Assembly: GCF_009908315.1 (NCBI RefSeq)
Contig: NZ_JAAATW010000004.1
Coordinates: forward strand, 1 to 64,000
Direction: 5' to 3'
Origin: Paragemmobacter ruber
GTDB taxonomy: Bacteria > Pseudomonadota > Alphaproteobacteria > Rhodobacterales > Rhodobacteraceae
Length of the DNA: 64,000 nucleotides
The translations under genes and the position numbers were made by a program. Below the pieces are notes generated by a model. The model worked only from the letters and a program-made list of their open reading frames with translations, searched no databases and was not told where the DNA came from. The stretch's first letter is position 1; each line of letters opens with the position of its first letter. Positions 9,122 to 46,226 of the stretch are shown here, piece by piece.

Positions 9122-9150
9122 GCGGCACACCGAGCGGAGCTTTGCAGACC

Positions 9151-12826: not shown

Positions 12827-13414
12827 TCAGTCGTTGTCGGATGTCCCCGCCCCGGCATTGTTGCGGGACGCAGCCGATGGCGGCACGGTCGTCCGCAAAG
12901 CCAGCCCGTCGAGGCAGTCGATGACCGATGCCGCGGCGATTGCGCGGTCCGCCCACTGGCGCAGCGGGCGGGCCGGTCCGATTTCCCAGCTTCTGGATGT
13001 GTCACGCCAAGCCGGGCCAAACATCACATGGCCCGAAGCCTCGACACTGACGACAATCCCGCTGGGATCGGTGATCCCCACGCTGCCAAATGTTCCTGCC
13101 ACCCGATGCAGAAACGGCAAGAGATAGCCAGGCCCCGCCAACCCGTCGGGTATCGCCACGGTGCTGCCTGCCGCAATCCCGCTTGGCAGGCTGTCGGCCA
13201 ATGCCGCGCCAAAGGTGACGGGATCGCCCCTGCCTTCGCAACATGCCGCCAGCCATGCCGCTGCCCAATCGGCCGCAGGAAGGGCGCGGCGCGACAGCCA
13301 GTCAGCAGCCCATCCCGCCTCCTCCGCCAGACCCCATGGCAAACCCGCCCCCCGCGCCGCCTTGGTCACAAGGGTGCGGATCTCGGAATGGGCCATGTCC
13401 AGCGATGCGACCAT
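12827..13414 (-). CDS. DUF3726 family protein
   Basis: A soluble protein of 195 aa that I recognise as DUF3726; function unknown. The N-terminus (SEIRTLVTKAARGAGLPWGLAEEAGWAADWL) is a conserved amphipathic start, and the middle holds an IPDGLAGPGYLLPFLHRVAG segment. There are no membrane segments and no signal peptide. It is the last gene of a tightly coupled catabolic operon; its ATG overlaps the stop of the 554-aa protein gene by one base (TGATG). Families of this kind that persist in one operon are often subunits or assembly partners of their neighbour. Confidence 0.68.
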   Translation of the reverse strand: MVASLDMAHSEIRTLVTKAARGAGLPWGLAEEAGWAADWLSRRALPAADWAAAWLAACCEGRGDPVTFGAALADSLPSGIAAGSTVAIPDGLAGPGYLLPFLHRVAGTFGSVGITDPSGIVVSVEASGHVMFGPAWRDTSRSWEIGPARPLRQWADRAIAAASVIDCLDGLALRTTVPPSAASRNNAGAGTSDND

Positions 13415-15078
13415 CAGCCGGCCAATTCGTCAGGAAAGGGCTGCCCCTGAAACAGGCTGATCCGAACCCAGCGGTCAGAGCGGGGATCAAACCGGTTGGC
13501 ACCGAAGAACGCCAGTTTGCAGCGCAGGATGTCGATGGGCAGCATGCCATGATCCAGAACATTGTCACGGATTTCGGCATAGGAAAGACCCTGCAGCATC
13601 TGGATCCGGCGCACCATATGCCGATGCTCGGGATGACGCAGCAGGAAGGCCGCGACGGGCCCGTCCTCTGGCCAGCCCTCCAGAGCAGCCGCCAGATCGC
13701 GAATGGCCCGCGCGATGCCCAGCGGTTGCTCCCGCTCCTGTCCGGCTTCTTCGTGGCGGTTGCCAAGCCGGGGTTCCAGCTTTTCTTCCGACACATACCA
13801 GAACCGCGCCACCTGTGCGGGGTCGTCAAAGTCGAACCTGCCCACCCAGCCATAGTCACGCGCCAGCACATCGCGCAGACGCGCCACGGTCAGCGCTCCG
13901 TCGATGGCGAAACCCGCCTCTTCATCGGCATGCAGGTGGTCCGACAGATCGTCGATCCATGCACCCTGCGGTTCAAGCATGAGGGACACCAGACATTCCT
14001 GCCCTTCCATCGACAATCGCGCCTCGGCCCACCGCCACAGCGCATCCCAAGGCCGGTGGCCATCTTTCTCCCAGCCCGTGGCGACATGATCCGCGATGCA
14101 GGCAAGATCGGCCCGCAACTGGGAAAGCTTCGCGATTTGCGCCGGATGATCGCTGTGCCAGGACCGGGCGTTTTCGGTCGCGCTGGCCAGGGCCGCCAAG
14201 AACCCCTCAAGCGCGGAAGGATCAACCGCGGGCAGCGCGCGCACGCGCGCCAGCGCGGTTTCGCGCACGGTGATCCAGTTGTTCAACAGGCGCGGATGGC
14301 GGACAAGGAAAGGCGCCATGCCCAACCCGGTAGAGTTGCCAACACCCAATCTGCGCCGCAAATCGCGGGCCAGCGGAACAGCCCGGTCTCCGCCTTTCAC
14401 CCGCGCCAGATGCTCTGCGATATCCACCGTAAAGGCACGGATCAGCCAGACGGAAAGCATCTCGGCCTGGAAGGGCGCCTGCAACTCTGGCCGATCGGCG
14501 ATCTGATCCCGGTCCGCTGCGCCGAACTTGCCCGAACCATAGACGGCGGTCGTCCGCATCAGATAGCCCACCGCGTCGATTTCCGCGATGTCGGGTTGCC
14601 GCCCCTCGGCCAGCCGGTCAACGACATGCGAAAACAGCCGGACGGAACGGTTGGCCCGGCTCAGGCACAGCTCGCGCGCGCTGATGCGACCTGCCTCTTG
14701 CACGGGGACATTGGCCGCCAGCCGGTCAAGATCGCGGGTCGTCGGTTCGCCATCGACCAGCGCAAAGGTGGCGTCCCATGCGGTGGCGATCACGCGGTCC
14801 GACCGCATCTCATCGGGCAGGTCATGGGCAAATGCGACCAGACAATAGGTCCGCTCCGGCCCGCGTGCGCGATACACCGCGCGCCCCACACCCCGGCTGT
14901 CCACCTCCCACAGGGGGCGGTCGAAACGCCAGCCTTCCGCCTTCAGCCGCCGCAACAAAACACGCAGGAAGGACAGCCGCATCGGATGGGCCGATCCCAT
15001 GCGCAACAGCCGCATCACGCAATCAGGATCGCGCAGCGGAATGGTCGTCTCCGTATCCTTGCGTTCCGCGATGGTCAT
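13414..15078 (-). CDS. Conserved protein of unknown family, 554 aa
   Basis: I do not recognise a named domain. It is a 554-aa soluble protein, rich in Arg, Trp and acidic residues, with no signal peptide, membrane helix or nucleotide-binding loop. Visible segments include a basic N-terminus (VMRLLRMGSAHPMRLSFLRV), GVGRAVYRARGPERTYCLVAFAH, a central RRLGVGNSTGLGMAPFLV, and a C-terminal part ending in QGQPFPDELAG. Repeated Arg-His-Pro and Trp-containing helices suggest an alpha-helical enzyme or binding protein. Its stop overlaps the DUF3726 start by one base and its start overlaps the M19-like gene by four, so it belongs to the same pathway. Confidence 0.75.
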   Translation of the reverse strand: MTIAERKDTETTIPLRDPDCVMRLLRMGSAHPMRLSFLRVLLRRLKAEGWRFDRPLWEVDSRGVGRAVYRARGPERTYCLVAFAHDLPDEMRSDRVIATAWDATFALVDGEPTTRDLDRLAANVPVQEAGRISARELCLSRANRSVRLFSHVVDRLAEGRQPDIAEIDAVGYLMRTTAVYGSGKFGAADRDQIADRPELQAPFQAEMLSVWLIRAFTVDIAEHLARVKGGDRAVPLARDLRRRLGVGNSTGLGMAPFLVRHPRLLNNWITVRETALARVRALPAVDPSALEGFLAALASATENARSWHSDHPAQIAKLSQLRADLACIADHVATGWEKDGHRPWDALWRWAEARLSMEGQECLVSLMLEPQGAWIDDLSDHLHADEEAGFAIDGALTVARLRDVLARDYGWVGRFDFDDPAQVARFWYVSEEKLEPRLGNRHEEAGQEREQPLGIARAIRDLAAALEGWPEDGPVAAFLLRHPEHRHMVRRIQMLQGLSYAEIRDNVLDHGMLPIDILRCKLAFFGANRFDPRSDRWVRISLFQGQPFPDELAG

Positions 15079-16085
15079 TCCGCCGCCCTCTTCGCCACGG
15101 TCCCCGCTGCGGCCGCCCCAAAGGACGTTCCAAAGAACCGCGCCCAGTTGCCGCCCATGATCGCCTCCACCTCGGCGGTCGAGAACCCGGCCACCCGCAA
15201 CCCATCAGCGATATTCCTGAAATCGCGATTGTCCCGGAACCAGCCCGGCATCGCGGGAAAGCCCGGCGCGTCCTTGCTGCCTTCGCCATAGTCGATGGCC
15301 TTGGTCCAGCGCCCGGTCCGCATCCATTCCACGACGCTGTCAGGCTGGTTCTGGCACAGATCGGTGCCGATCCCGATGAAATGCGTCCCGAACCGTTCGG
15401 CAGTACGGGCGATCATCGTGCAGAAGTCCTCGATCCGGCAGGCCGAGCCGCCCGCCAGATGGTGCGGATAGAGAGAAAAGCCAAGCATCCCCCCCGTTTC
15501 CGCCAAGGCCCCGATCACCGTTTCCGATTTGTTGCGCCGTGCGGGGTGCCACAGGGCCGGATTGGCATGGGTGATGGCAATAGGCCGTGCCGATTGCTCC
15601 ACGGCCGCCAGAGTTGAGCGTTCCCCCGAATGGCTCATGTCCACGACCATGCCCACGCGGTTCATCTCGGCCACGACCTCGCGGCCCATCCGGGTGAGGC
15701 CGGTGTCCTCTGTCTCATAGCAGCCCGTCGCCAGAAGCGACTGGTTGTTGTAGCTCAACTGCATGAACCGCAGCCCGAGCCGGTGCAGCACCTCGACCAG
15801 ACCGATGTCATCCTCGATGCAGGAAGGGTTCTGCGCCCCGAAAAAGATCGCCGTCCGCCCGCTGGCGCGCGCCGTTGCGATGTCATCGGCGGTAAAGCCC
15901 TGAAAGATCAGTTCCGGCCAGCGCTCGAACCAGCGGTTCCAGCGTTCGATGTTTGCCACCGTCTCGCGAAAGTTCTCGTGATAGACCAGCGTCACATGCA
16001 CGGCATCCACGCCACCTGCGCGAAGTTCGTGAAAGATGGCCTCGGACCAATTCGAATACTGCAGCCCGTCGATCAGGTAACTCAT
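15075..16085 (-). CDS. M19 membrane-dipeptidase-like metallohydrolase, altered metal site
   Basis: A 336-aa TIM-barrel hydrolase of the peptidase M19 (renal dipeptidase) family. The second half of the active site is kept: His152 (VDMSHSG), His173 (ITHANPA), Arg183 (ARRNKSE) and Asp242 (GIGTDLCQNQ). The first metal motif, His-x-Asp after the initial DG, reads DGLQYSNW here, and the bridging Glu of the EGG-type motif is replaced in FFGAQNPS. So the classic binuclear zinc centre is incomplete and true dipeptidase activity is doubtful. It overlaps both flanking genes by four bases. A hydrolytic ring-opening or amide-cleaving step in the operon's pathway is inferred. Confidence 0.8.
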   Translation of the reverse strand: MSYLIDGLQYSNWSEAIFHELRAGGVDAVHVTLVYHENFRETVANIERWNRWFERWPELIFQGFTADDIATARASGRTAIFFGAQNPSCIEDDIGLVEVLHRLGLRFMQLSYNNQSLLATGCYETEDTGLTRMGREVVAEMNRVGMVVDMSHSGERSTLAAVEQSARPIAITHANPALWHPARRNKSETVIGALAETGGMLGFSLYPHHLAGGSACRIEDFCTMIARTAERFGTHFIGIGTDLCQNQPDSVVEWMRTGRWTKAIDYGEGSKDAPGFPAMPGWFRDNRDFRNIADGLRVAGFSTAEVEAIMGGNWARFFGTSFGAAAAGTVAKRAAE

Positions 16086-17536
16086 TCCGGCGCCCCTGCC
16101 GCCATGTAGGCGGTCTTGACCGTGGTAAAGAACTCGGCGGCATAGCGTCCCTGCTCACGCGGACCAAAGGACGACATTCCGCGCCCGCCGAAGGGAACGT
16201 GATAGTCCGTTCCCGCCGTGGGCAGGTTTACCATGACACAGCCCGCACGCATGTTGGCACGAAAATGTGCCGCCCGTGCCAGACTGCGGGTCATGATCCC
16301 GGCGGTCAGTCCGAAGGGCGTGTCATTGGCGATGGCCAGCGCCTCGGCATAGCTGTCGGCGGGAAGGATGCAGGTGATCGGGGCGAACAGTTCCGTGCGG
16401 TTCACCTGCATGCTGTTGCTGGTTCCGGCTAGAATGGTGGGCGCCATGTAGTGGCCTTTCGTCGGGCGCTCCAGCGCGTCCCCGCCAGTTAGAACCTCTG
16501 CCCCTTCCGCCCTGCCCCGCGCCACCCAGTCCAGATTGGCGGCCAGCTGTGCCGCGCTCACCACAGGGCCGATCTGCGTGCCCTCGGCCAGCGCATGGCC
16601 CACCCGCAGGGCTTCTGTGGCGGCGACCAGCCGGGCGGTGAACGCCTCCAGCACCTTGCGATGCACGATCAGGCGCGACGCGGCGGTGCATTTCTGCCCC
16701 GTCCCGCCAAAGGCCGCATTGCAGGCATGTGCCACGGCCAACTCCATGTCGCAGTCATCCATGATGAGCATCGGGTTCTTCGACCCCATCTCCATCTGCA
16801 GCTTGGCACGATTTGCCAGCACGCGGGCGGCGATGCCCTGGCCTACCTCCACCGATCCGGTGAAGGTGACCGCCGCCACGTCCGGATGGCCCACCAGCGC
16901 ATCGCCCACCGCGCGCCCGGGTCCAAGCACCATGTTGAACGCTCCCGCAGGCAACCCTGCCCGCGCGATCACCTGCGTCAGCGCCACGGCCGAGGCCGGG
17001 GTCAGGTTGGCGGGTTTCCACACCACGGCATTGCCATAGGCCAGCGCCGGGGCAATCTTCCACGCGGGCGTCGCCACGGGAAAGTTCCACGGTGTCACGA
17101 TCGCCACCACGCCCACGGGTTCGCGCCGAACCTCGATCTCTATCCCCGGGCGCACGCTTTCCGCTTGGTCGCCGTGGCAGCGCAAGGCCTCGGCGGCGAA
17201 CCAGGTGAAGAACTGGCCCGCACGATAGACCTCGCCTTTCCCCTCGGCGAAAGGTTTGCCCTCCTCCCGCGACAGGACTGCGCCGATCTCGCCCGCGCGG
17301 GCCATCAGTTCCGTGCCGATCTGCATCAGCGCGTCATGCCGTCGCTGGATTCCCGCGGCGGCCCATTTCGGCTGCGCGTCGCGCGCAGCGGCCACCGCGC
17401 GATCCATGTCTGCGGCCGAGCCTTGCGCATAATTGCCGATCACATCGGACAGGTCCGACGGGTTTACATTGGCGACCGTCGCCTCCCCCTCGCACCAGTC
17501 GCCCGCGATGTAGTTGCGTGTTTCCAAGTCCATCAT
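16082..17536 (-). CDS. NAD(P)-dependent aldehyde dehydrogenase
   Basis: A 484-aa aldehyde dehydrogenase superfamily enzyme that oxidises an aldehyde to its acid. Catalytic Cys283 lies in GGTGQKCTAASR, Glu249 in LQMEMGSKNP and Asn151 in TPWNFPVATPAWK; the nucleotide-binding FTGSVEVGQ follows near 226. A second ATG one codon in (17533) is an equal start. It overlaps proV-like and M19-like genes by four bases each. The substrate is probably the semialdehyde made in the operon's pathway. Motifs resemble the succinate- and 2,5-dioxopentanoate-semialdehyde dehydrogenase group, but this cannot be fixed from sequence. Confidence 0.9.
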   Translation of the reverse strand: MMDLETRNYIAGDWCEGEATVANVNPSDLSDVIGNYAQGSAADMDRAVAAARDAQPKWAAAGIQRRHDALMQIGTELMARAGEIGAVLSREEGKPFAEGKGEVYRAGQFFTWFAAEALRCHGDQAESVRPGIEIEVRREPVGVVAIVTPWNFPVATPAWKIAPALAYGNAVVWKPANLTPASAVALTQVIARAGLPAGAFNMVLGPGRAVGDALVGHPDVAAVTFTGSVEVGQGIAARVLANRAKLQMEMGSKNPMLIMDDCDMELAVAHACNAAFGGTGQKCTAASRLIVHRKVLEAFTARLVAATEALRVGHALAEGTQIGPVVSAAQLAANLDWVARGRAEGAEVLTGGDALERPTKGHYMAPTILAGTSNSMQVNRTELFAPITCILPADSYAEALAIANDTPFGLTAGIMTRSLARAAHFRANMRAGCVMVNLPTAGTDYHVPFGGRGMSSFGPREQGRYAAEFFTTVKTAYMAAGAPE

Positions 17537-18558
17537 CCCTGCCCCCGCGCCAAGGCTTCCATCACGCGCTGCGGTGTCAGCGCCCCGGCGATCCGCCCGT
17601 CACCATCGCGCACCGCCACGACCGGCGCCCCGCCCGCGAAGGCGGCAAAAGCGGCCTCCAGCGTCGCCTCTGCCCCGATCACCGGCGCATCCGGCGCGGT
17701 GCTCAGGCCCGCATCGGCAAAGGCGCCGCACAAAAGGATGCGGCTGCGGTTCACGTCGCGCACAAAGCGCGCCACATAGTCATCAGCCGGGCGGGCAAGG
17801 ATCTCTGCCCCGGTGCCCACCTGCCGCAGCGTGCCGTCCTTCAGGATCGCGATGTGGTCGCCCAGCATCAGGGCCTCGTCCAGATCATGGGTGATGAAGA
17901 CGATGGTCTTGCCCAGTCGCGCCTGCAGTTCCTTCAACTGCACCTGCATGTCATGGCGGATCAGCGGATCCAGCGCCGAAAACGCCTCGTCCATCAGCAG
18001 GACCTCGGCATCGGTGGCCAGCGCGCGTGCCAGCCCAACGCGCTGCTGCATGCCCCCCGAAAGCTGCGCCGGATAGCTGCCCTCGAACCCCGACAAACCC
18101 ACCAGCGCAATCTGCTCGCCCGCGCGGCGCAGGGCCTCGGCCCGGGGCACGCCATCCAGAAACAGCCCATAGGCCACATTCTCGGCCACCGTCCGATGCG
18201 GCAGCAGCGCGAAACGTTGAAACACCATCGCGACCTTGCGCCGCCGGAAGGCCTGCAGGCGCGCCGCGTCGTATTTCAGGATATCGTCCCCATCGAACAG
18301 GATACGTCCCCCGGTCGGCTCGATCAGCCTGTTGAAGTGACGGATCAGCGTGCTTTTCCCCGACCCCGACAGTCCCATGATGACAAAGGTCTCGCCCGCC
18401 CGGATGTCCAGCGTGACGTCATGCAGGCCCAGCACATGGTCCGTCTCGGCCTTCAGTTGCCCCTTGTCCATTCCCGCCCGCACCTTTGCCAAGGCGCCTG
18501 CCGGATCACGGCCAAAGACCTTTGATACGTTTTCGACCCTGATCTTCACCGGGCGCAT
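17533..18558 (-). CDS. Betaine/proline-type ABC transporter ATPase (ProV-like)
   Basis: A 341-aa ATP-binding subunit of the QAT/ProU class importing quaternary amines. Walker A is GLSGSGKST near residue 63, the signature LSGGMQQR near 167, and Walker B VLLMDEAFSALD near 189. The C-terminal 60 residues form a single, poorly conserved CBS-like segment, shorter than the paired CBS domains of E. coli ProV. The ATG at 18558 is preferred over the GTG one codon upstream because it overlaps the permease stop by one base (TGATG). It forms an importer with the permease and binding protein just upstream. Confidence 0.92.
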   Translation of the reverse strand: MRPVKIRVENVSKVFGRDPAGALAKVRAGMDKGQLKAETDHVLGLHDVTLDIRAGETFVIMGLSGSGKSTLIRHFNRLIEPTGGRILFDGDDILKYDAARLQAFRRRKVAMVFQRFALLPHRTVAENVAYGLFLDGVPRAEALRRAGEQIALVGLSGFEGSYPAQLSGGMQQRVGLARALATDAEVLLMDEAFSALDPLIRHDMQVQLKELQARLGKTIVFITHDLDEALMLGDHIAILKDGTLRQVGTGAEILARPADDYVARFVRDVNRSRILLCGAFADAGLSTAPDAPVIGAEATLEAAFAAFAGGAPVVAVRDGDGRIAGALTPQRVMEALARGQG

Positions 18559-19433
18559 CACTTCCCCTCCCGATGCAGGTTCGCCTGCACGCGGCGGCCA
18601 TAGCTTTGTGCGATGCGGTCAAAGATGATCGCCAGCAAGACGATCCCCAGCCCCGCGATCAGACCCCGGCTCACCTCAAGGCGTTGGATGCCCTGCAGCA
18701 CCTGATAGCCCAGCCCCCCCGCCCCGATCATCGACGCGATCACCACCATGGACAGCGCCATCATCGTGGTCTGGTTGATTCCGGCCATGATCGTCGGCAT
18801 GGCCAGCGGCACCTGCACCGTCCACAACTGCTGGCGCGGTGAGGCGCCGAAGGCGCGCGCCGCCTCCACGATCTCGGCATCCACCTGCCGGATGCCCAGG
18901 TCGGTCAGCCGGATGACAGGCGGAATGGCAAAGACGATGGTCGCCAGCAGGGCCGGGATCTTGCCGGGGCCGAACAGCATGACGAACGGGATCAGATAGA
19001 CGAAGATCGGCATGGTCTGCATGATGTCGAGCACGGGCAACATGCCACCCCGCACCCGGTCGGATCGCGACATGGCGATCCCCAAAGGCACGCCGATCAG
19101 CACCGACAGGACGGTTGCAGCCAACATCAGCGCAACTGTCGCCATCGCGTCGTTCCAAACGCCCAGAAGGCCCAGCAACACCAGCAGGGCGGCGACAACG
19201 ATTACCGGCACCACCTTTCGGCCTGCCCCCCAGGTCGCGGCGCAGAACAGCGCAACCACCACCCACCAGGGCAGGAATTGCAGGCCCCGCTCCAGCCCGG
19301 TGATGGCCCGCAACACGGGCATGAAAATGATTTCCAGCGTCTCGCCCCAGTTGGCGACGATACCGTTGAAGGCGGCGTCGAGGGCGCGGCCAAAGCTGCG
19401 CGTATCCCAAAGTTCCGGGAAGCCGGAGGTCAT
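18558..19433 (-). CDS. Betaine/proline-type ABC transporter permease (ProW-like)
   Basis: A 291-aa inner-membrane permease with about seven hydrophobic segments. The BPD_transp_1 EAA loop reads [20 protein letters not shown], followed by [18 protein letters not shown], which is characteristic of ProW/OpuAB. A polar N-terminal extension precedes the first helix as in other ProW proteins. It partners the ATPase gene (1-base overlap) and the binding-protein gene, from which it is separated by 67 bases holding a strong stem-loop. Confidence 0.92.
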
Positions 19434-19454
19434 GGCTGTCGTCCTTCAAAATGA

Positions 19455-19488
19455 CGTGCCGCCCGCTCCACCAACGGGGGGCGGCACG
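19455..19488 (-). promoter_or_regulatory. Intercistronic stem-loop after binding-protein gene
   Basis: Perfect 10-bp arms, CGTGCCGCCC at 19455-19464 and GGGCGGCACG at 19479-19488, with a 14-base loop. It begins 12 bases after the ProX-like stop, before the permease gene. Only a weak TTTT follows in the minus direction, so partial attenuation or 3'-end mRNA protection is more likely than full termination. Such hairpins are known to raise binding-protein levels over permease levels in ABC operons. Confidence 0.6.
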
Positions 19489-19500
19489 CGCTGGCGCTGC

Positions 19501-20508
19501 TCAGAGGCTGGCCTTCACCTTCGCTGCCACCTCGGCGGGGACCCACGCGCTCCAGATCGCCTCGTATTCCGCCAGGAAATGTTCGGCGACCTCCTCAGCC
19601 GTGGCCCCGTTGTCATCCCCCCAGGCGAGGACGGTGCTGATCTCGTCATTCGGGACCTGCATCTTCGACAGGAACTCCGCCACCGCCGGTGCCTGCGTCT
19701 TCAGATCCGACACCACCGCCACCGCCACCTCTCCCGCGGCCCAGCCGGTGACTTGCGGATCGGCACAGTTGGCATCGGTCAGGCAGGTGAATTTTTCCCG
19801 GTCACTCTCGGGCATCCCGAGGCGGACAAGGTTGAACTTCCCGACCACATCCGACGGCCCCCAGTAATAGCCAACCCAGGGTTCCTGCTGCGCCACCGCC
19901 CGTGCGATGGACGCCTTCAGGTTTTCCCCCGAACCCGGCGAGAAAAGTTCGAACTCGTCCTCAAGCCCCAGCGCCTTGTAATAGTTGGTGATGATGACTT
20001 CGCTCGCCCAGCCGGGCGGCCCGTTGTACAGCCGTCCCTTGCCAGGGCTCTGGTTGTCTTCGAAGATCTGCCAGTTTGCAGCCAGATCCTCGATGGTCTT
20101 GATCTGCGGGTTCTGCTCCAGCACGTAATCCGGCACCCACAGCCCATCCTGACCCCCGCCCGCAAAGACATCGGACGCCTTGTAGACATTTCCCTTCGCC
20201 TGCATCTCGTCCCATTGCGCCTGCACGGTAGACACCCACAGTTCGGGCGCCACCGTCGGCTCTGACCGGGTCAGCATCGACGTCGCCGTCGGCACCGTGT
20301 CCCCGGGAACCAGCTGCGCATCGCAGCCATAGCCTGCCGCCATGATCTTCTGCGCCACATGCGCCAGCGTGGCCGCCGAAAGCCATGTCATTTCGGCCAC
20401 TGTAATCGTTCCGGCCGTGCCGCAATCCTGTGCGGCGGCGGGCTGGGCCTGCGTCATTCCCGCAACGGCAAGTGCGGCCAGCGCGGGGAAACCTATCTTC
20501 CGTGTCAT
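19501..20508 (-). CDS. Quaternary-amine-type ABC transporter substrate-binding protein (ProX-like)
   Basis: A 335-aa periplasmic binding protein of the OpuAC/ProX type. Residues 1-27 are a signal peptide ending AQPAAAQ. The mature protein has the family ITVAEMTWLSAATLAHV start and aromatic residues of the kind that form a cation-pi cage for methylated ammonium groups (YNGPPGWASE, EPWVGYYWGPSD). Four cysteines in the mature part could form disulfides. The ATG at 20508 gives an intact signal peptide and is preferred to the longer frame. It lies 98 bases after the Ldh2-like gene. The ligand is likely a betaine-like compound. Confidence 0.92.
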   Translation of the reverse strand: MTRKIGFPALAALAVAGMTQAQPAAAQDCGTAGTITVAEMTWLSAATLAHVAQKIMAAGYGCDAQLVPGDTVPTATSMLTRSEPTVAPELWVSTVQAQWDEMQAKGNVYKASDVFAGGGQDGLWVPDYVLEQNPQIKTIEDLAANWQIFEDNQSPGKGRLYNGPPGWASEVIITNYYKALGLEDEFELFSPGSGENLKASIARAVAQQEPWVGYYWGPSDVVGKFNLVRLGMPESDREKFTCLTDANCADPQVTGWAAGEVAVAVVSDLKTQAPAVAEFLSKMQVPNDEISTVLAWGDDNGATAEEVAEHFLAEYEAIWSAWVPAEVAAKVKASL

Positions 20509-20606
20509 CGCGAACCTCTCTGTTAGGCAGGGCTTTCCATGCCCCTTGTGGCGGCAGTGTCCGGCAGGGTTGAACTTCAATCAAACGACAACGAATGAGA
20601 TTGATT

Positions 20607-21608
20607 TCAGTTTTGCTGAACCCCAAGGCGCTGCGCGAGATCGCCATCCACCTCGACACCGTCCCGCATCGTGCGCGCCCGCGCGGCCTGCCGCCGCGCC
20701 CCGGGCAGCCGCGCGCCCGGTTGCGCCTCGATCGCGGCAACGAGGCCGGCCATGCGGTCGGTGAAACCCGCGGCAAAGGCGGCTGGATCCAGCGCGATGA
20801 AGCATTGCCCCGTCCCCGGCGGCCCACCGACCGGCCCGGAAAACGGGCTGGCCTCCCGACTGGCCACCGCCCCGGCCAGCGCTGATGCCAGAACCTCCAC
20901 CAGCAACCCCATGCCGAAACCCTTCGTCCCACCCGCTGGCAACATCGACCCTTTAAGCGCTTTGTCCGGGTCCGTCGTCGGCGCACCGTCGGCGTCAAGG
21001 GCCCAACCTTCGGGGATCGCCTCGCCCCGCCTTGCCCGCAGGATCACCTCTGACTTCGCCACGACACTGGCGGATTGATCCAGCACGAACCGCGCCCCGC
21101 CAACACCGTCCGGAACCGCCAGCGCAAAGGGATTGGTCCCGATCACAGGCACCCGCCCGCCCGGTGGCGCGATCGAGGCCGGCGCATGCGTAAAGCAAAG
21201 ACCGACCAACCCCGCCTCGGCGATCCGCTCCGCGTGATGGCCAAGGATGCCGCAGTTATACGACCGGTGCAGCGTCATCGCCGCGATGCCGCAGGTGCGC
21301 GCGGCCTCGATCAACACGGGCAGGCCCAGATCGACGGCTGGATGGGCAAAGCCATGCGCCGCATCCACGGTCACGGCGCCCGGTCGCGGCTGTGCAAGCT
21401 GCGGTTCGGCGCTGCCGATCACCTTGCCGCAGGCCAGATGCTCGGCATAGATCGGCAGATACATCAATCCATGCGACCGCACACCGTCCCGCTCGGCCAG
21501 ACGGATGGATCGTGCCACCGGCATCGCCTGCGCCCGGCTCGCCCCGGCGCCGATCAGTATCCGCAAGGCCAAAGCCTCTATCTCGTCCAGCCCGATCCGC
21601 AGCGACAT
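20607..21608 (-). CDS. Ldh2/malate-lactate dehydrogenase family oxidoreductase
   Basis: A 333-aa NAD(P)H-dependent reductase of the Ldh2 (type II malate/L-lactate dehydrogenase) family, which also includes delta1-piperideine-2-carboxylate/pyrroline-2-carboxylate reductase (DpkA), ureidoglycolate dehydrogenase and sulfolactate dehydrogenase. The catalytic histidine is His46 in DGVRSHG, and the VIGTNPFALAVPDG and KGFGMGLLVEVLA segments are typical. The ATG at 21608 has GGAGG six bases upstream, so it is preferred to a TTG two codons earlier. It heads the operon with the betaine-type importer. An imine or 2-oxo-acid reductase role is inferred from context. Confidence 0.85.
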   Translation of the reverse strand: MSLRIGLDEIEALALRILIGAGASRAQAMPVARSIRLAERDGVRSHGLMYLPIYAEHLACGKVIGSAEPQLAQPRPGAVTVDAAHGFAHPAVDLGLPVLIEAARTCGIAAMTLHRSYNCGILGHHAERIAEAGLVGLCFTHAPASIAPPGGRVPVIGTNPFALAVPDGVGGARFVLDQSASVVAKSEVILRARRGEAIPEGWALDADGAPTTDPDKALKGSMLPAGGTKGFGMGLLVEVLASALAGAVASREASPFSGPVGGPPGTGQCFIALDPAAFAAGFTDRMAGLVAAIEAQPGARLPGARRQAARARTMRDGVEVDGDLAQRLGVQQN

Positions 21609-21699
21609 CCGCAACCTCCATCCTGCCTTGACGCAGCATTCCGATTGCTCGCTTCAACTCAACGCAGTACTTCTTTGGTAGATTTCAGGGAAATTGAAC

Positions 21700-22602
21700 A
21701 TGATCCGCCTCGAAGCCTTGCGCGCCTTTGTCGAAGTGGCCGATCACGGCAACATCAAGGATGCCTCGGAACGGCTGTTTCGTACGCCTTCGGCCCTGTC
21801 CATGACGCTGAAACAGATCGAAGACCGGCTGGGATGCCCGCTGTTCGAAACCGATCGCAAGTCCAGCCTCACCGACATGGGGCGCTTCCTCTACGATCAG
21901 GCCGTTGTCCTGTTGCGCGACTACGACCGCGCGATGGAGCGGATCGACGCGCAGTCCAAGGCGCGCAGCGGGCGCTTGCGCATCGCCTCTGTCCCATCGG
22001 TGGCGACGATGCTGCTGCCCGCCTTCCTGCAGGAATTCATTTCCACCCGTCCCGATCTTGATGTCGAACTGGTCGATACCGACAGCACCGATGTCCGCCT
22101 TCTGGTCGAGACGGGGCAGGTCGATCTCGGCATAGCCGGGTTTTCGGCCGATCAGCCCGGCATCGCCACGCGGCCCGTTTTCCGCGATCCCTTCCTTCTG
22201 GTCTGTCGCACGGACAGCCTGCTTGCCGCCAAGGGGCCGGTGCTCGACTGGGATGATCTGAAAGGCCAATCCCTCATCGTGAACGAGGCGGCCCGCGGCC
22301 TGCCGTCAGACGGGTTTCAGGCACTCGTCCGAGAGGCGCGCTTTTCGGTGCGCAACGTGGCATCCCTGATCGCCATGGTGCAATCGGGCATGGGCGTCAC
22401 GCTTCTGCCCGCACTGGCCACGGTCAATCTGCCCGCCGCGCTGACCGCCCGGTCCCTGCGCGATCCGGCCTGCCTGCGCACGGTCAGCCTGCTCTGGCGG
22501 GCGGGCCGCGTCCACAGCCCCGTCGCCCAGCGGTTCCTGCAGGACTTCGTGCTTGCCGCGAGGCAGACAACACGCAGCCTTGGGCTCGAAGCCATGGGGT
22601 GA
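21700..22602 (+). CDS. LysR-family transcriptional regulator (next to Ldh2/ProXWV operon)
   Basis: A LysR-type regulator of 300 aa: HTH at residues 1-60 (IRLEALRAFVEVADHGNIKDASE, then PSALSMTLKQIEDRLG) and effector domain from about 90 (SGRLRIASVPSVATMLLPAF). The ATG at 21700 follows a CAGGGAA ribosome site; a TTG two codons upstream is possible. It is divergent from the Ldh2/ProXWV/ALDH operon with 91 bases between starts and is the obvious regulator of that operon. Confidence 0.9.
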   Translation: MIRLEALRAFVEVADHGNIKDASERLFRTPSALSMTLKQIEDRLGCPLFETDRKSSLTDMGRFLYDQAVVLLRDYDRAMERIDAQSKARSGRLRIASVPSVATMLLPAFLQEFISTRPDLDVELVDTDSTDVRLLVETGQVDLGIAGFSADQPGIATRPVFRDPFLLVCRTDSLLAAKGPVLDWDDLKGQSLIVNEAARGLPSDGFQALVREARFSVRNVASLIAMVQSGMGVTLLPALATVNLPAALTARSLRDPACLRTVSLLWRAGRVHSPVAQRFLQDFVLAARQTTRSLGLEAMG

Positions 22603-22985
22603 ACCGGGCTTCGCCGCGCAGCACCACGTCCCTCCGGCCGCGTTGACCATTGCAGCACCGCCAACGATCCGGCACGTCATTCCGGTCGCGGTCGGGGCGC
22701 CGCAGCACCAGCGAACGGCACAGCCCGGCTATGGCGAAAGAAGCGCACTCACTTCCCCAGGGCCGCGATGCACCTTCCCGCCGCCAACCCGACCTCCTGG
22801 TCGGCGCCGCGCAGCAGGATGACGCAAGTCATCCCGACCGCGATGATCCATTTATCCGGGTTTGGCGCCGCGCGGTCAGGATGGTTCGGGTTGACGCAAA
22901 TTCCCCGTCAACGCGGCCAATCCAAAGCACGGCGGCAGCCGCGTCGTGAACATGCCGTCGCGCGGCCCCGCCCTGTGCTACACCG
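22603..22985. other. Intergenic region without a gene
   Basis: 383 bases between the ends of a LysR gene and the Gfo/Idh/MocA gene (convergent). No protein-like frame, RNA gene or terminator with a U-run is apparent. It has scattered GC-rich imperfect repeats only. Confidence 0.5.
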
Positions 22986-24146: not shown

Positions 24147-24231
24147 GAAAGCACCTCGCTTATTGATTTTTGTCCAAGACCGTATGGCGGGCCGCGGGCG
24201 CACCCCGGCCCGCCCGCTCATTCCAGCCGCT

Positions 24232-40829: not shown

Positions 40830-40999
40830 TCTCCCCGCCCAAACATCCCAACCGCCCGGGCGCGGATCATCGCTGCTGTCGGATATGGGCGGTTGCGTGG
40901 CGGGAATGGATGGAGGTTTTCGCGCGCCCCGGCGCATATTCCGGCGGAGTGTTCGCTGGGCCGCAGACCGCAAGGCCCGCATCAGAATGGACTGTACCG

Positions 41000-42250
41000 A
41001 TGCGCTATTCCGGCTTCCGTGTGATCGCCGAGGCCCTCACCGGCCACAAGGGATGGAAACCCGCATGGCGCGACCCAGAACCGCAATCTTCCTATGATTA
41101 CATCATCATCGGCGGCGGCGGCCATGGTCTGGCCACGGCCTACTATCTGGCCAAGGAATTCAAACAGGCCCGCATCGCCGTGCTGGAAAAGGGCTATCTC
41201 GGCGGCGGCAATGTGGGGCGCAACACGACCATCATCCGCTCCAACTATCTGCTTGATGGGAACGAACCCTTCTACGAGTTTTCCCTGAAACTCTGGGAAG
41301 GTCTGGAACAAGACTTCAACTACAACGCCATGGTGTCCCAGCGCGGGATCATCAACCTGTACCACACCGATGCCCAGCGCGATGCCTATACCCGTCGCGG
41401 CAACGCCATGATCCTGCACGGGGCCGATGCGGAACTGCTGAACCGCGATCAGGTTCGCGCAATGTATCCCTTCCTAAATTTCGACAACGCCCGCTTCCCC
41501 ATCAAGGGTGCGCTGATGCAGCGGCGCGGCGGCACCGTCCGCCACGACGCCGTGGCCTGGGGCTATGCGCGCGGCGCAGACCAGCGCGGCGTGGACCTGA
41601 TCCAGAACTGCGAAGTCACGGGCATCCGCACGGAAGCAGGCCGCGCGACGGGCGTTGACACCACGCGCGGCTTCATCGGCGCGAAGAAGGTGGGCGTCGC
41701 CGTGGCGGGCAATTCGTCCAAGGTCATGAGCCATGTGAACATGCGCCTGCCCATCGAATCCCATGTGTTGCAGGCCTTCGTATCCGAAGGCCTCAAACCC
41801 CTCATCGACGGTGTCATGACCTATGGCGCAGGCCATTTCTACGTCAGCCAGTCCGACAAGGGCGGTCTTGTGTTCGGCGGCGATATCGACGGCTACAACT
41901 CCTACGCCCAGCGCGGCAACATGCCGGTGGTCGAAGACGTGGCCGAAGGCGGCATGTCCCTCATCCCCATGATCGGCCGCGCCCGCCTGCTGCGCTCATG
42001 GGGCGGGATCATGGACATGTCGATGGATGGCAGCCCCATCATCGACAAGACCGATATCGACGGCCTCTATTTCAACGGCGGCTGGTGCTATGGCGGCTTC
42101 AAGGCCACCCCCGCCTCCGGCTGGTGCTTCGCGCATCTCCTCGCCACCGATCAACCCCATCCCACCGCCACCGCCTATCGCTTTGATCGCTTCCGCAAGG
42201 GGCTGATGATCGACGAAAAAGGGCAGGGCGCGCAGCCCAACCTGCACTGA
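41000..42250 (+). CDS. mgdA: N-methylglutamate dehydrogenase subunit A (sarcosine oxidase beta-like)
   Basis: A 416-aa flavoprotein of the SoxB/DAO family. The FAD motif YIIIGGGGHGLATAYYL is at residues 34-50. His182 in RRGGTVRHDAVAWGYA sits where heterotetrameric sarcosine oxidases carry covalent FMN. With subunits B, C and D it forms the dehydrogenase that oxidises N-methylglutamate to glutamate and passes a one-carbon unit to tetrahydrofolate. The four-gene order B-D-A-G is that of soxBDAG. N-methylglutamate rather than sarcosine is chosen as substrate because mgsABC and gmaS follow in the same locus. The ATG at 41000 is preferred; an upstream in-frame ATG adds 30 unconserved residues. Confidence 0.9.
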   Translation: MRYSGFRVIAEALTGHKGWKPAWRDPEPQSSYDYIIIGGGGHGLATAYYLAKEFKQARIAVLEKGYLGGGNVGRNTTIIRSNYLLDGNEPFYEFSLKLWEGLEQDFNYNAMVSQRGIINLYHTDAQRDAYTRRGNAMILHGADAELLNRDQVRAMYPFLNFDNARFPIKGALMQRRGGTVRHDAVAWGYARGADQRGVDLIQNCEVTGIRTEAGRATGVDTTRGFIGAKKVGVAVAGNSSKVMSHVNMRLPIESHVLQAFVSEGLKPLIDGVMTYGAGHFYVSQSDKGGLVFGGDIDGYNSYAQRGNMPVVEDVAEGGMSLIPMIGRARLLRSWGGIMDMSMDGSPIIDKTDIDGLYFNGGWCYGGFKATPASGWCFAHLLATDQPHPTATAYRFDRFRKGLMIDEKGQGAQPNLH

Positions 42251-42260
42251 GGGCAAGCAG

Positions 42261-42560
42261 ATGATCATCAACCACCCCCTCCTCGGCCCCCGCGACGCGC
42301 AGGAATTCACCTATCTTGGCGACGCCGCCCTGATCGACCGGCCCGATGGCATGGCCTTCCCTGACGCCACCGCCGCGCAGGACGCCTTCCACGATTACCT
42401 CTACCTGCGCGACAACCCCGCAGGCGAACACCGCGAGCTTTGGTTCCACGAACAGGGCGACCGGTCATGGCTCGTCGTCACCCGCAACACCGTGACGCAT
42501 GAAATCACCAAGGTCGAATTCGCCCGCGATGTGGCCCGCAGCCGGGGGCGCAGCAAATGA
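42261..42560 (+). CDS. mgdB: N-methylglutamate dehydrogenase subunit B (sarcosine oxidase delta-like)
   Basis: A 99-aa SoxD-like subunit. SoxD of true sarcosine oxidases binds zinc through CPxCG at the N-terminus and a His-x3-Cys. Here the first motif is HPLLG (residues 5-9) and the second His63-x3-Asp67 (WFHEQGD), so all three cysteines are gone. The rest of the fold pattern (REFxYLGDA-like start, SWLVVTRNTVTHEI) is kept. The gene lies 10 bases after mgdA and overlaps mgdC by four. The changed zinc site may be a marker of the N-methylglutamate group. Confidence 0.88.
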   Translation: MIINHPLLGPRDAQEFTYLGDAALIDRPDGMAFPDATAAQDAFHDYLYLRDNPAGEHRELWFHEQGDRSWLVVTRNTVTHEITKVEFARDVARSRGRSK

Positions 42561-45508
42561 CGCAAGAAAACCGCATCAAGGGCGGCCAGATCGACCGCAC
42601 GAAAACGCTCCGCTTCACCTTCGACGGCCACCCCTATACGGGCCATCCGGGTGACACGCTGGCCTCTGCCCTGCTGGCGAACGGCGTCCGCCTGATGGGG
42701 CGCAGCTTCAAATACCACCGCCCGCGCGGCCCGCTTTCGGCGGGGTCCGAAGAACCCAATGCCATCGTCGAACTGCGCACCGGCGCGCGGCAGGAACCCA
42801 ACACCCGCGCCACCGTTGCGGAACTCTTCGACGGTCTGGAAGCCAACAGCCAGAACCGCTTCCCCTCGCTCAAATTCGATCTCATGGGGATCAACGACCG
42901 CCTGTCGCCCTTCTTCGCCGCAGGCTTCTACTACAAAACCTTCATGTGGCCCGCGGCCTTCTGGGAAAAGATCTACGAACCCATCATCCGCCGCGCCGCA
43001 GGCCTCGGCTCGCTGACCCGCGAAGAAGACCCCGATCAATACGACAAGGGCTTCCTCCACTGCGACATCCTCATCATCGGCGCTGGCCCCGCAGGCCTGA
43101 TGGCCACCCTCACCGCCGCCCGCGCCGGCGCGCGCGTCATCCTTGCGGATGAAGATTTCCGCATGGGCGGCCGCCTCAACGCCGAAACCCTCACCGTCGG
43201 CAACCATTCCGGCGCCGACTGGGCCGAAGATACCGTCCGCACGCTGGCGCAGATGCCCAACGTCCGCCTCATGCCCCGCACCACCGTGCTGGGCGCGATG
43301 GACCACGGCATCTATTCCGCCGTCGAACGCGTCTCCGACCACCTCCCCATCCCGGCCCCCGGCAAGCCGCGCCAGATCCTCTGGCGCATCTATTCGGCCC
43401 ACGCGATCCTCGCCGCAGGCGCCACCGAACGCCCCATCGCGTTCGAGAACAACGACCGCCCCGGCATCCTCCTCGCAGGAAGCTTGCGCACCTATGCCAA
43501 CCGCTACGCCGTGGCCGTGGGCGACCGCGTCGCCGTCTTCACCAACAATGATGACGGCCTGCGCACCGCGACCGACCTGCAAGCCAAGGGCATCGACATC
43601 GCCGCCGTCATCGACACGCGGCAGGAAGGCGACCTCCTCCCCGGTATCCGCCACCTCAAAGGCGCGCAGGTGATCGACACGAAAGGCAAACTCGGCCTGA
43701 AATCCATCACCATCCGCCACGCGAACGGTCGTTCGGAAACCCTCTCCGTCAACGCCCTCGGCGTCTCGGGTGGCTGGAACCCGAACCTCAACATCGCCAG
43801 CCACCACCGCGGCCGCCCGGTCTGGAACGACGCGATCCACGCCTTCACGCCCCCCACCGGCGGCCCGAAGAACCTGACTGCCGCAGGGGCAGCCGCAGGC
43901 GCGCTTTCCACCCATGCCGCCCTGCAAACAGGCGCTGCCCAGGCCAATGCCGCGCTTGAAGCCTTGGGCCTCAAAACCCACACCCCCGACCTGCCAAAGG
44001 CCGAGGACGCCCCCCTCAACCTCACCCCCTTCTGGTATGTCGGCGAAGGCAAGGGGCGGGCCTGGATCGACCAGCAGAACGACGTCACCGTGAAGGATGT
44101 CAAACTGGCGAAACAGGAAAACTTCACCTCCGTCGAACACCTGAAACGCTACACCACGCTGGGCATGGCAACGGATCAGGGCAAGACCGGCAACATCCTC
44201 GGCCTTGCGATCATGGCCGAACTCACCGGCCGCTCCATCCCGCAGACCGGCACGACCATCTACCGCCCGCCCTACACCCCCGTCGCCATGGGTGCCCTCG
44301 CAGGTCGCTCGCGCGGGCCTGAATTCAAACCCACCCGCCTGACGCCCAGCCACAAATGGGCCGCCGAACAAGGCGCGATCTTCGTCGAGGTGGGCATGTG
44401 GCTCCGCGCCCAATGGTTCCCCAAGGCGGGTGAGACCACATGGCGCCAATCCGTGGACCGCGAGGTTCTGCAAACCCGCGCCTCCGTCGGCATCTGCGAT
44501 GTCACCACCTTGGGCAAGATCGACATTCAGGGCTGCGACGCAGGCGCCTTCCTCGATCGCGTCTACGCCAACACCTTCTCCACCCTCCCCATCGGCAAGG
44601 TCCGCTACGGCCTGATGCTGCGCGAGGATGGCATCGTCATGGATGACGGCACCACCGCCCGCATGGGCGAAAACGAATGGGTGATGACGACAACCACCGC
44701 CAACGCCGTCCCGGTCTTCCGCCACCTCGAATATGTCCGCCAATGCCTCTATCCTGACATGGACGTGCAGCTCATCTCCACCACTGAGGCTTGGGCGCAA
44801 TTCTCCGTCGCCGGTCCCAATGCACGCAAACTGCTGCAAAAGGTGGTGGATCAGGACATCTCCGATGCTGCCTTCCCCTACATGGCCTGCGGCAACATCA
44901 CTGTCTGTGGCGGCCTGCGCGCGCGGCTCTTCCGCATCTCCTTCTCGGGCGAACTGGCCTATGAAATCGCCGTTCCCACCCGCTATGGCGATGCCCTGAT
45001 CCGCGAGATGATGAAGGCAGGCGAAGAGTTCGGCGCCGTCGCCTATGGCACCGAATCCCTCGGCGTCATGCGCGTCGAAAAGGGTCACGTCGCGGGCAAT
45101 GAACTCAACGGCCAGACCACCGCCCTCAACATGGGGCTGGGCAAGATGGTGTCGAAGAAGAAAGACAGCATCGGCATGGTCCTGTCGCAACGCGAAGGGC
45201 TGAACGCGGATGATGGCCTCCGCCTTGTCGGCGTCAAACCGGTGGACCCGTCAAAACCGCTCACCGCAGGTTCCCATTTCCTCGATATCGGCGCGGCCCC
45301 GGTGGCGGCCAACGATGGCGGCTGGCTCACCTCCGTCGTATATTCGCCCCACCTCAAATCCTCCATCGCGCTGGGCTATCTCAAGAACGGCACCGCCCGC
45401 ATCGGCCAGAAGATGCGCGCCGTGAACCTGCTCGCCAAGACAGAGGTGGAGGTGGAAATCGTCTCGCCCCACTTCTTCGACCCGGAAGGAGACCGCCTCC
45501 GTGGCTGA
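42557..45508 (+). CDS. mgdC: N-methylglutamate dehydrogenase subunit C (sarcosine oxidase alpha-like)
   Basis: A 983-aa SoxA-like subunit. In order: an N-terminal ferredoxin-like domain without Fe-S cysteines (about 10-100, FDGHPYTGHPGDTLASALLANG), an NAD-binding pyridine-nucleotide oxidoreductase domain (LIIGAGPAGLMATL at about 173-186), and a C-terminal GCV_T/folate-binding domain from about 600 (CDVTTLGKIDIQGCDAGAFL, with LYPDMDVQLISTTEAWAQFSVAGPNA). The folate domain receives the methyl carbon from N-methylglutamate as methylene-tetrahydrofolate. It overlaps mgdB by four bases and mgdD by eight. Confidence 0.93.
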   Translation: MTQENRIKGGQIDRTKTLRFTFDGHPYTGHPGDTLASALLANGVRLMGRSFKYHRPRGPLSAGSEEPNAIVELRTGARQEPNTRATVAELFDGLEANSQNRFPSLKFDLMGINDRLSPFFAAGFYYKTFMWPAAFWEKIYEPIIRRAAGLGSLTREEDPDQYDKGFLHCDILIIGAGPAGLMATLTAARAGARVILADEDFRMGGRLNAETLTVGNHSGADWAEDTVRTLAQMPNVRLMPRTTVLGAMDHGIYSAVERVSDHLPIPAPGKPRQILWRIYSAHAILAAGATERPIAFENNDRPGILLAGSLRTYANRYAVAVGDRVAVFTNNDDGLRTATDLQAKGIDIAAVIDTRQEGDLLPGIRHLKGAQVIDTKGKLGLKSITIRHANGRSETLSVNALGVSGGWNPNLNIASHHRGRPVWNDAIHAFTPPTGGPKNLTAAGAAAGALSTHAALQTGAAQANAALEALGLKTHTPDLPKAEDAPLNLTPFWYVGEGKGRAWIDQQNDVTVKDVKLAKQENFTSVEHLKRYTTLGMATDQGKTGNILGLAIMAELTGRSIPQTGTTIYRPPYTPVAMGALAGRSRGPEFKPTRLTPSHKWAAEQGAIFVEVGMWLRAQWFPKAGETTWRQSVDREVLQTRASVGICDVTTLGKIDIQGCDAGAFLDRVYANTFSTLPIGKVRYGLMLREDGIVMDDGTTARMGENEWVMTTTTANAVPVFRHLEYVRQCLYPDMDVQLISTTEAWAQFSVAGPNARKLLQKVVDQDISDAAFPYMACGNITVCGGLRARLFRISFSGELAYEIAVPTRYGDALIREMMKAGEEFGAVAYGTESLGVMRVEKGHVAGNELNGQTTALNMGLGKMVSKKKDSIGMVLSQREGLNADDGLRLVGVKPVDPSKPLTAGSHFLDIGAAPVAANDGGWLTSVVYSPHLKSSIALGYLKNGTARIGQKMRAVNLLAKTEVEVEIVSPHFFDPEGDRLRG

Positions 45509-46067
45509 CCATCGCTTGCACCCGATCACGCCCCTCGGCCACGACACGCCCCACAGCGTGACCATCGGCCCCGTAACGATCACCGAAGTCACCGACACGG
45601 CGCTTGCCTCCCTCGCCGCCCGTCTGGGCGAGGGGAAGGCCGTGGCCGACATCGCGGATACCGCAGGCATCCCGCTTCCCGGCTCCGGCCACGCCGCGCA
45701 GGGCGCGACCTTCGCCGCCTTCTGGCTCTCGCCCGACATGTGGATGGTAGAGGCGCCCTTCGCCACGCATGAGGATATCGTGGCGATCCTGAAACCCCAT
45801 TTCGGCGAAACCGCCTCCCTCACCGAACAGACCGACGCTTGGGCGCGCTTCGATGTGACGGCCCCCGACCTGCCCGCCATGTTCGAACGGCTCTGCAATT
45901 TCGACCTGCGCGCGCATGGCCCCGGCGCGGCCACCCGGACGGTGATCGAACATCTGGGCTGCTACGTCGTGATCCGCGCGCCGGGCCATCTGTCGGTGCT
46001 CGGCCCCCGCTCTTCGGCGGCCTCGCTCTTCCACGCTCTGGAAACCGCCGCGCGCTCGGCCTTCTAG
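45501..46067 (+). CDS. mgdD: N-methylglutamate dehydrogenase subunit D (sarcosine oxidase gamma-like)
   Basis: A 188-aa SoxG-like subunit, structurally a relative of the folate-binding domain. The start is a GTG that overlaps the mgdC stop by eight bases and has AAGGAGA upstream. Family segments seen are FWLSPDMWMVEAP, a Ser/Thr-rich VTEQTDAWARFDVTAPD-type middle and an ERLCNFDLR near residue 130. It caps the heterotetramer; no separate activity is known. It ends the mgd operon, 159 bases before the XRE regulator gene. Confidence 0.88.
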   Translation: MADHRLHPITPLGHDTPHSVTIGPVTITEVTDTALASLAARLGEGKAVADIADTAGIPLPGSGHAAQGATFAAFWLSPDMWMVEAPFATHEDIVAILKPHFGETASLTEQTDAWARFDVTAPDLPAMFERLCNFDLRAHGPGAATRTVIEHLGCYVVIRAPGHLSVLGPRSSAASLFHALETAARSAF

Positions 46068-46161
46068 GCTGGCAACCCGTCCCGCGGTTCATTTCCCTGC
46101 CGCATGGCCACAGGGCGCGGCCCAACATGCCGCGCCGCCGTTTGCAGACGGCCTTGCCGAC

Positions 46162-46195
46162 TTGTCCAATGCGCTTTTTTCCCTATAGTAAAAAA
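46162..46195 (+). promoter_or_regulatory. Predicted promoter with A/T inverted repeat upstream of XRE regulator
   Basis: A sigma70-like pair, TTGTCC at 46162-46167 and TATAGT at 46184-46189 with 16-base spacing. The -10 sits inside an inverted repeat of T6 (46175-46180) and A6 (46190-46195) around a CTATAG core. This is an AT island in GC-rich DNA and suggests autoregulation. Confidence 0.45.
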
Positions 46196-46226
46196 CCATT
46201 CGTATATGTTCACTATGGGGGAAGTG

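Follow-up and report, generated by a model that had tools for sequence, protein, structure and literature searches.

A putative hom-type homarine operon that includes a ProXWV importer in Paragemmobacter ruber

The window analysed here, 64,000 nucleotides at the start of contig C4 (NZ_JAAATW010000004.1) of the 3.96 Mb genome of Paragemmobacter ruber, contains at positions 12827-22602 a group of nine genes that we propose to be an operon for the uptake and breakdown of homarine (N-methylpicolinate). Eight of the genes form a single run on the minus strand. By increasing coordinate, these encode a 195-residue DUF3726 protein (12827..13414; PF12525, 6.6e-12), the single DUF3726 match in the genome; a 554-residue protein without a known family (13414..15078); an M19-like amidohydrolase with an atypical metal site (15075..16085; Peptidase_M19, PF01244, 1.4e-70); an aldehyde dehydrogenase (ALDH, 16082..17536; Aldedh, PF00171, 3.1e-154); a ProV-type ABC ATPase (17533..18561; ABC_tran, and TIGR01186 with 334.7 bits, above its cut-off); a ProW-type permease (18558..19433; BPD_transp_1, PF00528, 3.9e-30, and TIGR03416 with 271.5 bits, below its cut-off); a ProX-type substrate-binding protein with an onium cage (19501..20508; OpuAC, PF04069, 1e-52); and a reductase of the Ldh2 family (20607..21608; Ldh_2, PF02615, 1.1e-94). 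The ninth gene, for a LysR-type regulator (21700..22602, plus strand; LysR_substrate, PF03466, 7.4e-41, and HTH_1, PF00126, 1.4e-17), diverges from the run. All of the Pfam domains score above the curated cut-offs.

A first-pass annotation of this DNA, made from the letters alone, had named these genes, and each of them is present where it had been placed, as judged by open reading frames (ORFs) and Pfam. It had also described nearly all of them as joined by overlaps of 1-4 bases, which is true of five of the seven junctions in the run: one base between the DUF3726 and 554-residue genes, and four bases at each of the next four. The remaining two are gaps, of 67 bases between ProW and ProX and of 98 bases, counted from the ATG, between ProX and Ldh2. 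For ProX the mechanical ORF starts with a TTG at 20580, and the stretch resembling a signal peptide begins at the ATG; ATG codons were also chosen for Ldh2 and LysR, which have alternative TTG starts at 21614 and 21694, respectively. The divergent intergenic region of 91 bases (21609..21699) is where one would look for promoters and a LysR site. No sigma-70-type consensus was found in this region. A scan for promoters gave 0 sites (1.2 expected), and one for terminators gave 4 terminator-like sites against 6.2 expected.

The same genes are found together in many other genomes. A survey of named genomes matched at least 592 stretches, of which at least 566 encode relatives of the 554-residue protein; the best 80 were analysed, a sample that leans toward close relatives and in which short contigs leave absences uncertain. 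The homologues at these 80 loci are 54-71% identical to the window protein. Genes for ALDH, the M19-like protein and LysR occur within 9 kb of the homologue at 48 loci, and at 19 they are accompanied by Ldh2. Because 48 of the 80 loci keep ALDH, M19 and LysR near the 554-residue homologue, the grouping is not a matter of chance. The window proteins have tblastn matches, some of which may not be orthologues, at 74 loci for M19, 62 for DUF3726, 57 for ALDH, 52 for LysR, 28 for Ldh2, 24 for ProV and 6 each for ProX and ProW. The M19 gene lies upstream of the 554-residue gene at 73 loci, separated by at most 400 bases in 49 and by a larger gap in 24. Among the matches listed, the genera include Ruegeria, Leisingera and Shimia. 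Within the family, 91 of the 198 genomes encode a relative of the 554-residue protein, as do 29 of 398 in the phylum, and none was found in the congeneric genome G104. Four metagenome-assembled genomes labelled Acidimicrobiales (L116, L124, L127 and L132) also encode relatives, with 58-59% identity, which may reflect either transfer out of the Proteobacteria or mis-binning.

The 554-residue and DUF3726 proteins very likely work as one enzyme, to judge from the way in which their genes are arranged. An ORF of at least 150 residues begins near the end of the 554-residue gene at 76 of the 80 loci (none was listed for L063, L087, L105 and L121), and in 54 of these 76, going by the start codon that was chosen, the two genes overlap by 4 bases. 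When 36 of the 76 downstream ORFs were aligned with the window DUF3726 protein, all 37 rows matched PF12525 at E ≤ 1. Furthermore, the two proteins are fused at four loci, L064, L072, L087 and L140 (Mesorhizobium sp. 131-2-1); the downstream ORFs of L064 and L072, which are counted among the 76, are Ldh2 genes that come after the fused gene.

The 554-residue protein has no match in Pfam or NCBIfam, nor in the PDB by sequence. The best PDB profile matches have E-values of 0.031 and 0.46, and the Pfam and PDB profile searches as a whole yielded weak, scattered matches only. Its predicted model is a confident one, with a predicted local distance difference test (pLDDT) of 86.8 and a predicted template modelling score of 0.89, and Foldseek found no PDB fold similar to it at E ≤ 0.001. 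An alignment of 23 sequences, comprising the window protein and 22 of the relatives found in the family and phylum genomes, has 58 invariant residues; Arg, Gly, Glu and Asp together account for 32 of them, and His for one. Gly-181 and Gly-186, both invariant, belong to a loop (residues 181-186) of low model confidence. The possibility that the protein is itself an Ldh2 relative was rejected: two motifs looked similar by eye, but hhalign gave a probability of 0.1. DUF3726 was folded alone, because a mixed alignment on the natural fusion, prepared for a joint model, had almost no conserved column and was read as misaligned. The top Foldseek matches of the resulting model (pLDDT 86.7) are mostly members of the Ldh2 family, with a probability of 0.90 and E-values of 0.16 or higher, none of them significant; hhalign against Ldh2 profiles gave E = 0.0013 and a probability of 18 over 59 columns at the start of DUF3726. 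At most, these matches hint at an Ldh2-derived subunit. The C-terminal tail of DUF3726, SRxxGAGAGxxDND, is conserved in the alignment. It seems to vary less than the central part of the protein does, which would suit a segment that extends into a partner or an active site. No paper on DUF3726 was found in the literature searched.

What kind of compound does the importer deliver to these enzymes? The nearest solved relative of ProX is 7yle (2.9e-64), deposited as RnDmpX with dimethylsulfoniopropionate (DMSP), and of the eight residues that PMC10030565 names for the pocket, the window protein shares seven, Glu-113 being exchanged for Asp (mapped by hand on the alignment). At related loci the transporter is often of another type: BCCT matches occur at 23 of the 80 and ProXWV at 5, and the six ORFs that were tested in the gap between the M19 and 554-residue genes are all BCCT betaine transporters. 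Paracoccus yeei (L085) and Roseateles (L145) also keep the catabolic genes together with ProXWV, at 57-69% identity to the window proteins, and more distant ProXWV proteins occur at L069, L081, L082 and L083. Since a betaine-type transporter changes while the catabolic genes persist, we infer that the substrate is a zwitterionic onium compound. The earlier expectation of coupled uptake and catabolism is supported, and so is that of a quaternary-amine type of substrate, given ProXWV in the window, BCCT in relatives and a ProX cage of which most residues are retained.

The importer could instead serve DMSP or glycine betaine and belong to the operon by position only, a view that is compatible with a homarine operon and agrees with the DMSP ligand of RnDmpX. 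We regard this as unlikely, because ProXWV is found with catabolic genes at L085 and L145 and, more distantly, at L069, L081, L082 and L083; homarine is absent from the main text of PMC10030565. The substrate of the enzymes could also be another zwitterionic N-methyl compound, such as trigonelline, proline betaine or hydroxyproline betaine, which would make the locus a relative of the hom operon. Such a substrate would suit the existence of a distant cluster type in Sinorhizobium and Bosea, where a relative of the 554-residue protein and M19 have other partners, as well as the betaine-demethylase-like genes beside the cluster of Phaeobacter inhibens. It is made improbable by the lack of Pfam matches to a demethylating oxygenase, a racemase or a deaminase of the dihydrodipicolinate synthase type among the nine genes, and by the 554-residue protein being far closer to the 80 named loci (54-71%) than to the distant type (31-34%).

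In P. inhibens (L139, plasmid pPGA1_262), positions 15497-22980 encode an FAD oxidoreductase, a ring-hydroxylating oxygenase and a VanB-type reductase of the betaine-demethylase kind, and at 14417-15390 there is a tblastn match to Ldh2 in two overlapping pieces that is absent from the gene table. The distant cluster type occupies 11139-22327 of L142 (S. meliloti 2011, pSymB) and 8992-16952 of L143 (Bosea). There, the 31-34% identical relative and the protein after it, which belongs to no family, occur with an M19-like protein and with an ABC importer that is accompanied by an IclR gene; S. meliloti has a class III aminotransferase and an ALDH in addition. These clusters probably serve another substrate.

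Returning to the putative homarine operon, we compared its recognisable enzymes with solved structures and family models. The Ldh2 protein is most similar to 1wtj, the delta1-piperideine-2-carboxylate reductase DpkA (4.9e-51), which according to part of PMC6237917 served in the reductive methylamination of pyruvate for making N-methylalanine. Among the 198 genomes of the family, all 34 Ldh2 matches with at least 53% identity lie within 12 kb of a gene for the 554-residue protein, against 8 of 81 weaker matches. Because all 34 close matches lie this near to such genes, this type of Ldh2 is taken to be part of the pathway. The M19-like protein has the amidohydrolase 2i5g as its nearest solved relative (3.8e-53). 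The HxD motif and the bridging Glu of the two-zinc site of M19 renal dipeptidases are both missing: the protein has IDGLQYSN in place of the dipeptidase IDGHND and AQNP in place of AEGG, and 2i5g similarly has DGL and FQN. By contrast, an alignment of 70 rows has His-152, His-173 and Asp-242 retained in 97% of them or more. On these grounds "dipeptidase" is probably the wrong name for it, and the first-pass proposal that this hydrolase opens the ring does not sit well with the loss of the usual HxD and Glu. For the ALDH, the best NCBIfam model is that of alpha-ketoglutaric semialdehyde dehydrogenase (478 bits), and the top PDB matches are succinate-semialdehyde and betaine-aldehyde enzymes.

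The chemistry is constrained by a carbon count. Homarine has seven carbons and N-methylglutamate six, N-methyl included; the carboxyl group and C2-C5 of homarine can become C1-C5 of glutamate, and C6 has to leave. The sequence first suggested, in which the ring is reduced, the hydrolase opens it and the aldehyde is then oxidised, yields N-methyl-2-aminoadipate by formula, and because one ring carbon must go, it cannot yield N-methylglutamate. We therefore propose a different order. The 554-residue/DUF3726 pair would use O2 and two electrons to cleave the ring between C5 and C6, so that C6 ends up in an N-formyl group and C5 in an aldehyde, which ALDH would oxidise to the acid. The M19-like hydrolase would then release the formyl group as formate to give N-methyl-2-iminoglutarate, and the DpkA-like Ldh2 would reduce this imine to N-methyl-L-glutamate, from which N-methylglutamate dehydrogenase (Mgd) would form glutamate and a one-carbon unit. 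LysR would respond to homarine or an intermediate. Every step balances by formula, and the route would give each recognised enzyme a reaction of its own kind, in parallel with the known pathway for trigonelline. We infer the substrate as well as these steps, which in their exact form are possible rather than probable. Loss of C6 without oxygen balances as formaldehyde; no enzyme for it was recognised in the operon, and it was set aside by reasoning.

A homarine operon could also work without carbon loss, much as the first-pass annotation had it: reduction by Ldh2, ring opening to N-methyl-2-aminoadipate semialdehyde, oxidation by ALDH to N-methyl-2-aminoadipate and demethylation by a SoxBDAG-type enzyme. 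Such a route would use recognised activities only and needs no oxygenase, its formula balances with a net addition of two hydrogens, and the closest solved relative of Ldh2 does reduce a cyclic piperideine carboxylate. It does not give N-methylglutamate, however, which is reportedly the product of the known pathway, and it leaves the regularly paired 554-residue and DUF3726 proteins without a role, so that we think it improbable. For the oxidative opening preferred here, we tentatively suggest that the pair is a two-subunit enzyme of new fold that opens the N-methylpyridinium ring at C5-C6 and arose independently of the flavin monooxygenase of trigonelline breakdown; the related rhizobial core with other partners would then act on other cyclic amines.

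A putative destination for N-methylglutamate is found in the same window, as the first-pass annotation had pointed out. A SoxBDAG set (40910-46067, plus strand) starts 18 kb past the LysR gene and includes candidates for mgdA (SoxB-type, 40910..42250; TIGR01373, 688.7 bits), mgdB (SoxD-type, 42261..42560; PF04267, 2.9e-28), mgdC (SoxA-type, 42557..45508; TIGR01372, 1336 bits) and mgdD (SoxG-type, 45501..46067), the last assigned by position and without a family match. The TIGR models for soxA and soxB fail to separate Mgd from sarcosine oxidase. The set is followed by glutamine-amidotransferase, glutamate-synthase and type III glutamine-synthetase genes, the last being a candidate gmaS (50055..51362, plus strand; TIGR03105, 656.3 bits, above cut-off), and 40910-51362 as a whole resembles the gene complement of the N-methylglutamate pathway, with mgd, mgs and gmaS. 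A regulator with HTH_3 and cupin domains lies beside the mgd-type genes (46104-46904). Elsewhere in the window, on either side of the operon, are an Sbt_1-type bicarbonate transporter (9142-10125) and a Gfo/Idh/MocA oxidoreductase (22986-24296).

In several other genera SoxBDAG-type genes are close to the cluster, at about 1.0-2.1 kb from its closest gene: P. inhibens DSM 17395 (L139), Ruegeria TM1040 (L141, whose SoxB falls outside the displayed stretch), Roseateles sp. XES5 (L145), Shimia (L133) and L080. The candidate mgdD is 43-47% identical to the gene at the same place in L139, L141, L133 and L080. The window SoxA is 68% identical to the cluster-linked SoxA of Phaeobacter, TM1040 and Shimia, compared with 55% and 46% for the other two full-length copies in its own genome, and in an unrooted tree of seven sequences it joins these three and not the paralogue on contig C3; the Roseateles SoxA does not join them. 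At 16522-18303 in Roseateles (L145), purU and folD come after ProXWV, which fits disposal of the N-methyl one-carbon unit. Across the 198 family genomes, an mgdD-type gene is present in 26 of 91 with the 554-residue gene and in 17 of 107 without it (p = 0.038), and the two genes lie within 15 kb of each other in 4 of the 26 genomes that have both, where 0.2 were expected. The gene is also more frequent where the close, hom-type Ldh2 is linked (15/34) than where it is not (11/57, p = 0.016). Not counted in these tallies are mgdD matches weaker than 100 bits, which concern 17 of 60 genomes, and gmaS matches below the cut-off, which concern 2 of 63; the distance test uses one 554-residue place per genome, the lists behind the tallies were copied by hand, and the p-values carry no correction and take no account of common descent. 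N-methylglutamate as the end product is supported both by the nearness of SoxBDAG in several genera and by a passage in PMC13390433 stating that Mgd was recently reported in homarine catabolism, with reference to Ferrer-Gonzalez et al. (2026, Nat Microbiol 11:1531).

Alternatively, homarine might be broken down to methylamine and 2-oxoglutarate, N-methylglutamate arising secondarily through GmaS and Mgs. Genes of both types are present in the window, and gmaS is more frequent in genomes with the 554-residue gene (39/91) than in those without it (22/107, p = 0.001), an excess that a shared lifestyle could explain. On the other hand, the 554-residue gene occurs in 8 of 10 genomes with mgdD and without gmaS compared to 18 of 33 with both, a difference that is not significant (p = 0.27), and no gmaS is annotated in the L139, L141 and L145 stretches, where SoxBDAG adjoins the cluster. 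We consider this route to be quite unlikely.

Several observations weigh against the proposal of a homarine operon that feeds N-methylglutamate to Mgd. The 478 bits of the ALDH are below the 770-bit cut-off of its best model, any Ldh2 match is present at just 28 of the 80 loci (partly owing to contig ends), and two loci labelled SAR116 (L117 and L125) match ALDH, M19, the 554-residue protein and DUF3726, with no match to LysR or Ldh2. The nearest solved relative of ProX binds DMSP. No cofactor or metal motif was recognised in the 554-residue protein or DUF3726, and for this reason their role as an oxygenase is unproven. In the tree, the SoxA of Roseateles (51%) falls with a different paralogue from the P. 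ruber genome, 65 of the 91 genomes with the 554-residue gene have no mgdD-type match above 100 bits, and among 15 genomes chosen for their linked Ldh2, 6 lack a SoxA with at least 62% identity to that of the window. Of the two genomic predictions made from the proposed chemistry, that for mgdD held under the narrow definition of Ldh2 only, fading when any linked Ldh2 is counted (16/42 vs. 10/49, p = 0.10), and the predicted excess of gmaS in genomes without a linked Ldh2 failed (23/49 vs. 16/42, p = 0.52; 24/57 without vs. 15/34 with for hom-type Ldh2 only, p = 1.0). With all this considered, it is probable that the locus is a homarine operon of the hom type, and the complete explanation, in which the operon has its own ProXWV importer and supplies N-methylglutamate to the SoxBDAG-type Mgd, is likely. 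The pathway guessed in the first-pass annotation is partly supported: it was a good one with well-named genes, and its order of steps needs to be changed.

Homarine is described in part of PMC13390433 as a ubiquitous marine metabolite, and through its bacterial consumers the carbon and nitrogen it contains re-enter the food web. Should the proposal be true, about 40 kb of this genome would hold everything from homarine uptake and ring opening to the N-methylglutamate branch. Moreover, the search for what opens the pyridinium ring, and how, would come down to a pair of proteins for which no fold was recognised and which have relatives at no fewer than 566 places.

How does the locus compare with known systems? 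The hom operon reported in 2026, homABCDER, is said to consist of a LysR gene and five catabolic genes, to yield N-methylglutamate and to be spread in Rhodobacterales, SAR116 and SAR11. The window likewise has LysR and five catabolic genes, relatives in Rhodobacterales and a link to Mgd, and differs in that its ProXWV importer sits between Ldh2 and ALDH. No paper describing hom genes was found in the literature searched, as judged by titles and abstracts. In the trigonelline (tgn) pathway of Acinetobacter baylyi, a two-component flavin monooxygenase opens the ring. The logic proposed here would be the same, an N-methylpyridinium being opened to leave an N-formyl group, followed by an aldehyde dehydrogenase and then a hydrolase; the recognisable flavin monooxygenase, however, has no counterpart among the nine window genes. 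DpkA (1wtj), an imine reductase that has been employed to form an N-methyl amino acid, is the closest solved relative of the operon Ldh2, itself a putative imine reductase. The DMSP importer DmpXWV, as far as described in the main text of PMC10030565, is also of the ABC type and shares seven of eight pocket residues, whereas the window ProX has Asp in place of Glu-113 and no DMSP-catabolic gene was recognised among the nine. MgdABCD of R. pomeroyi, given in part of PMC13390433 as SPO1585-1588 with an adjoining AraC-type regulator, TmaR, resembles the window in its set of four SoxBDAG genes and in having a gmaS-type gene in the vicinity, while the window regulator is of the HTH_3 and cupin type. 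Most likely, the operon of P. ruber is a new instance of the kind of system reported in 2026.

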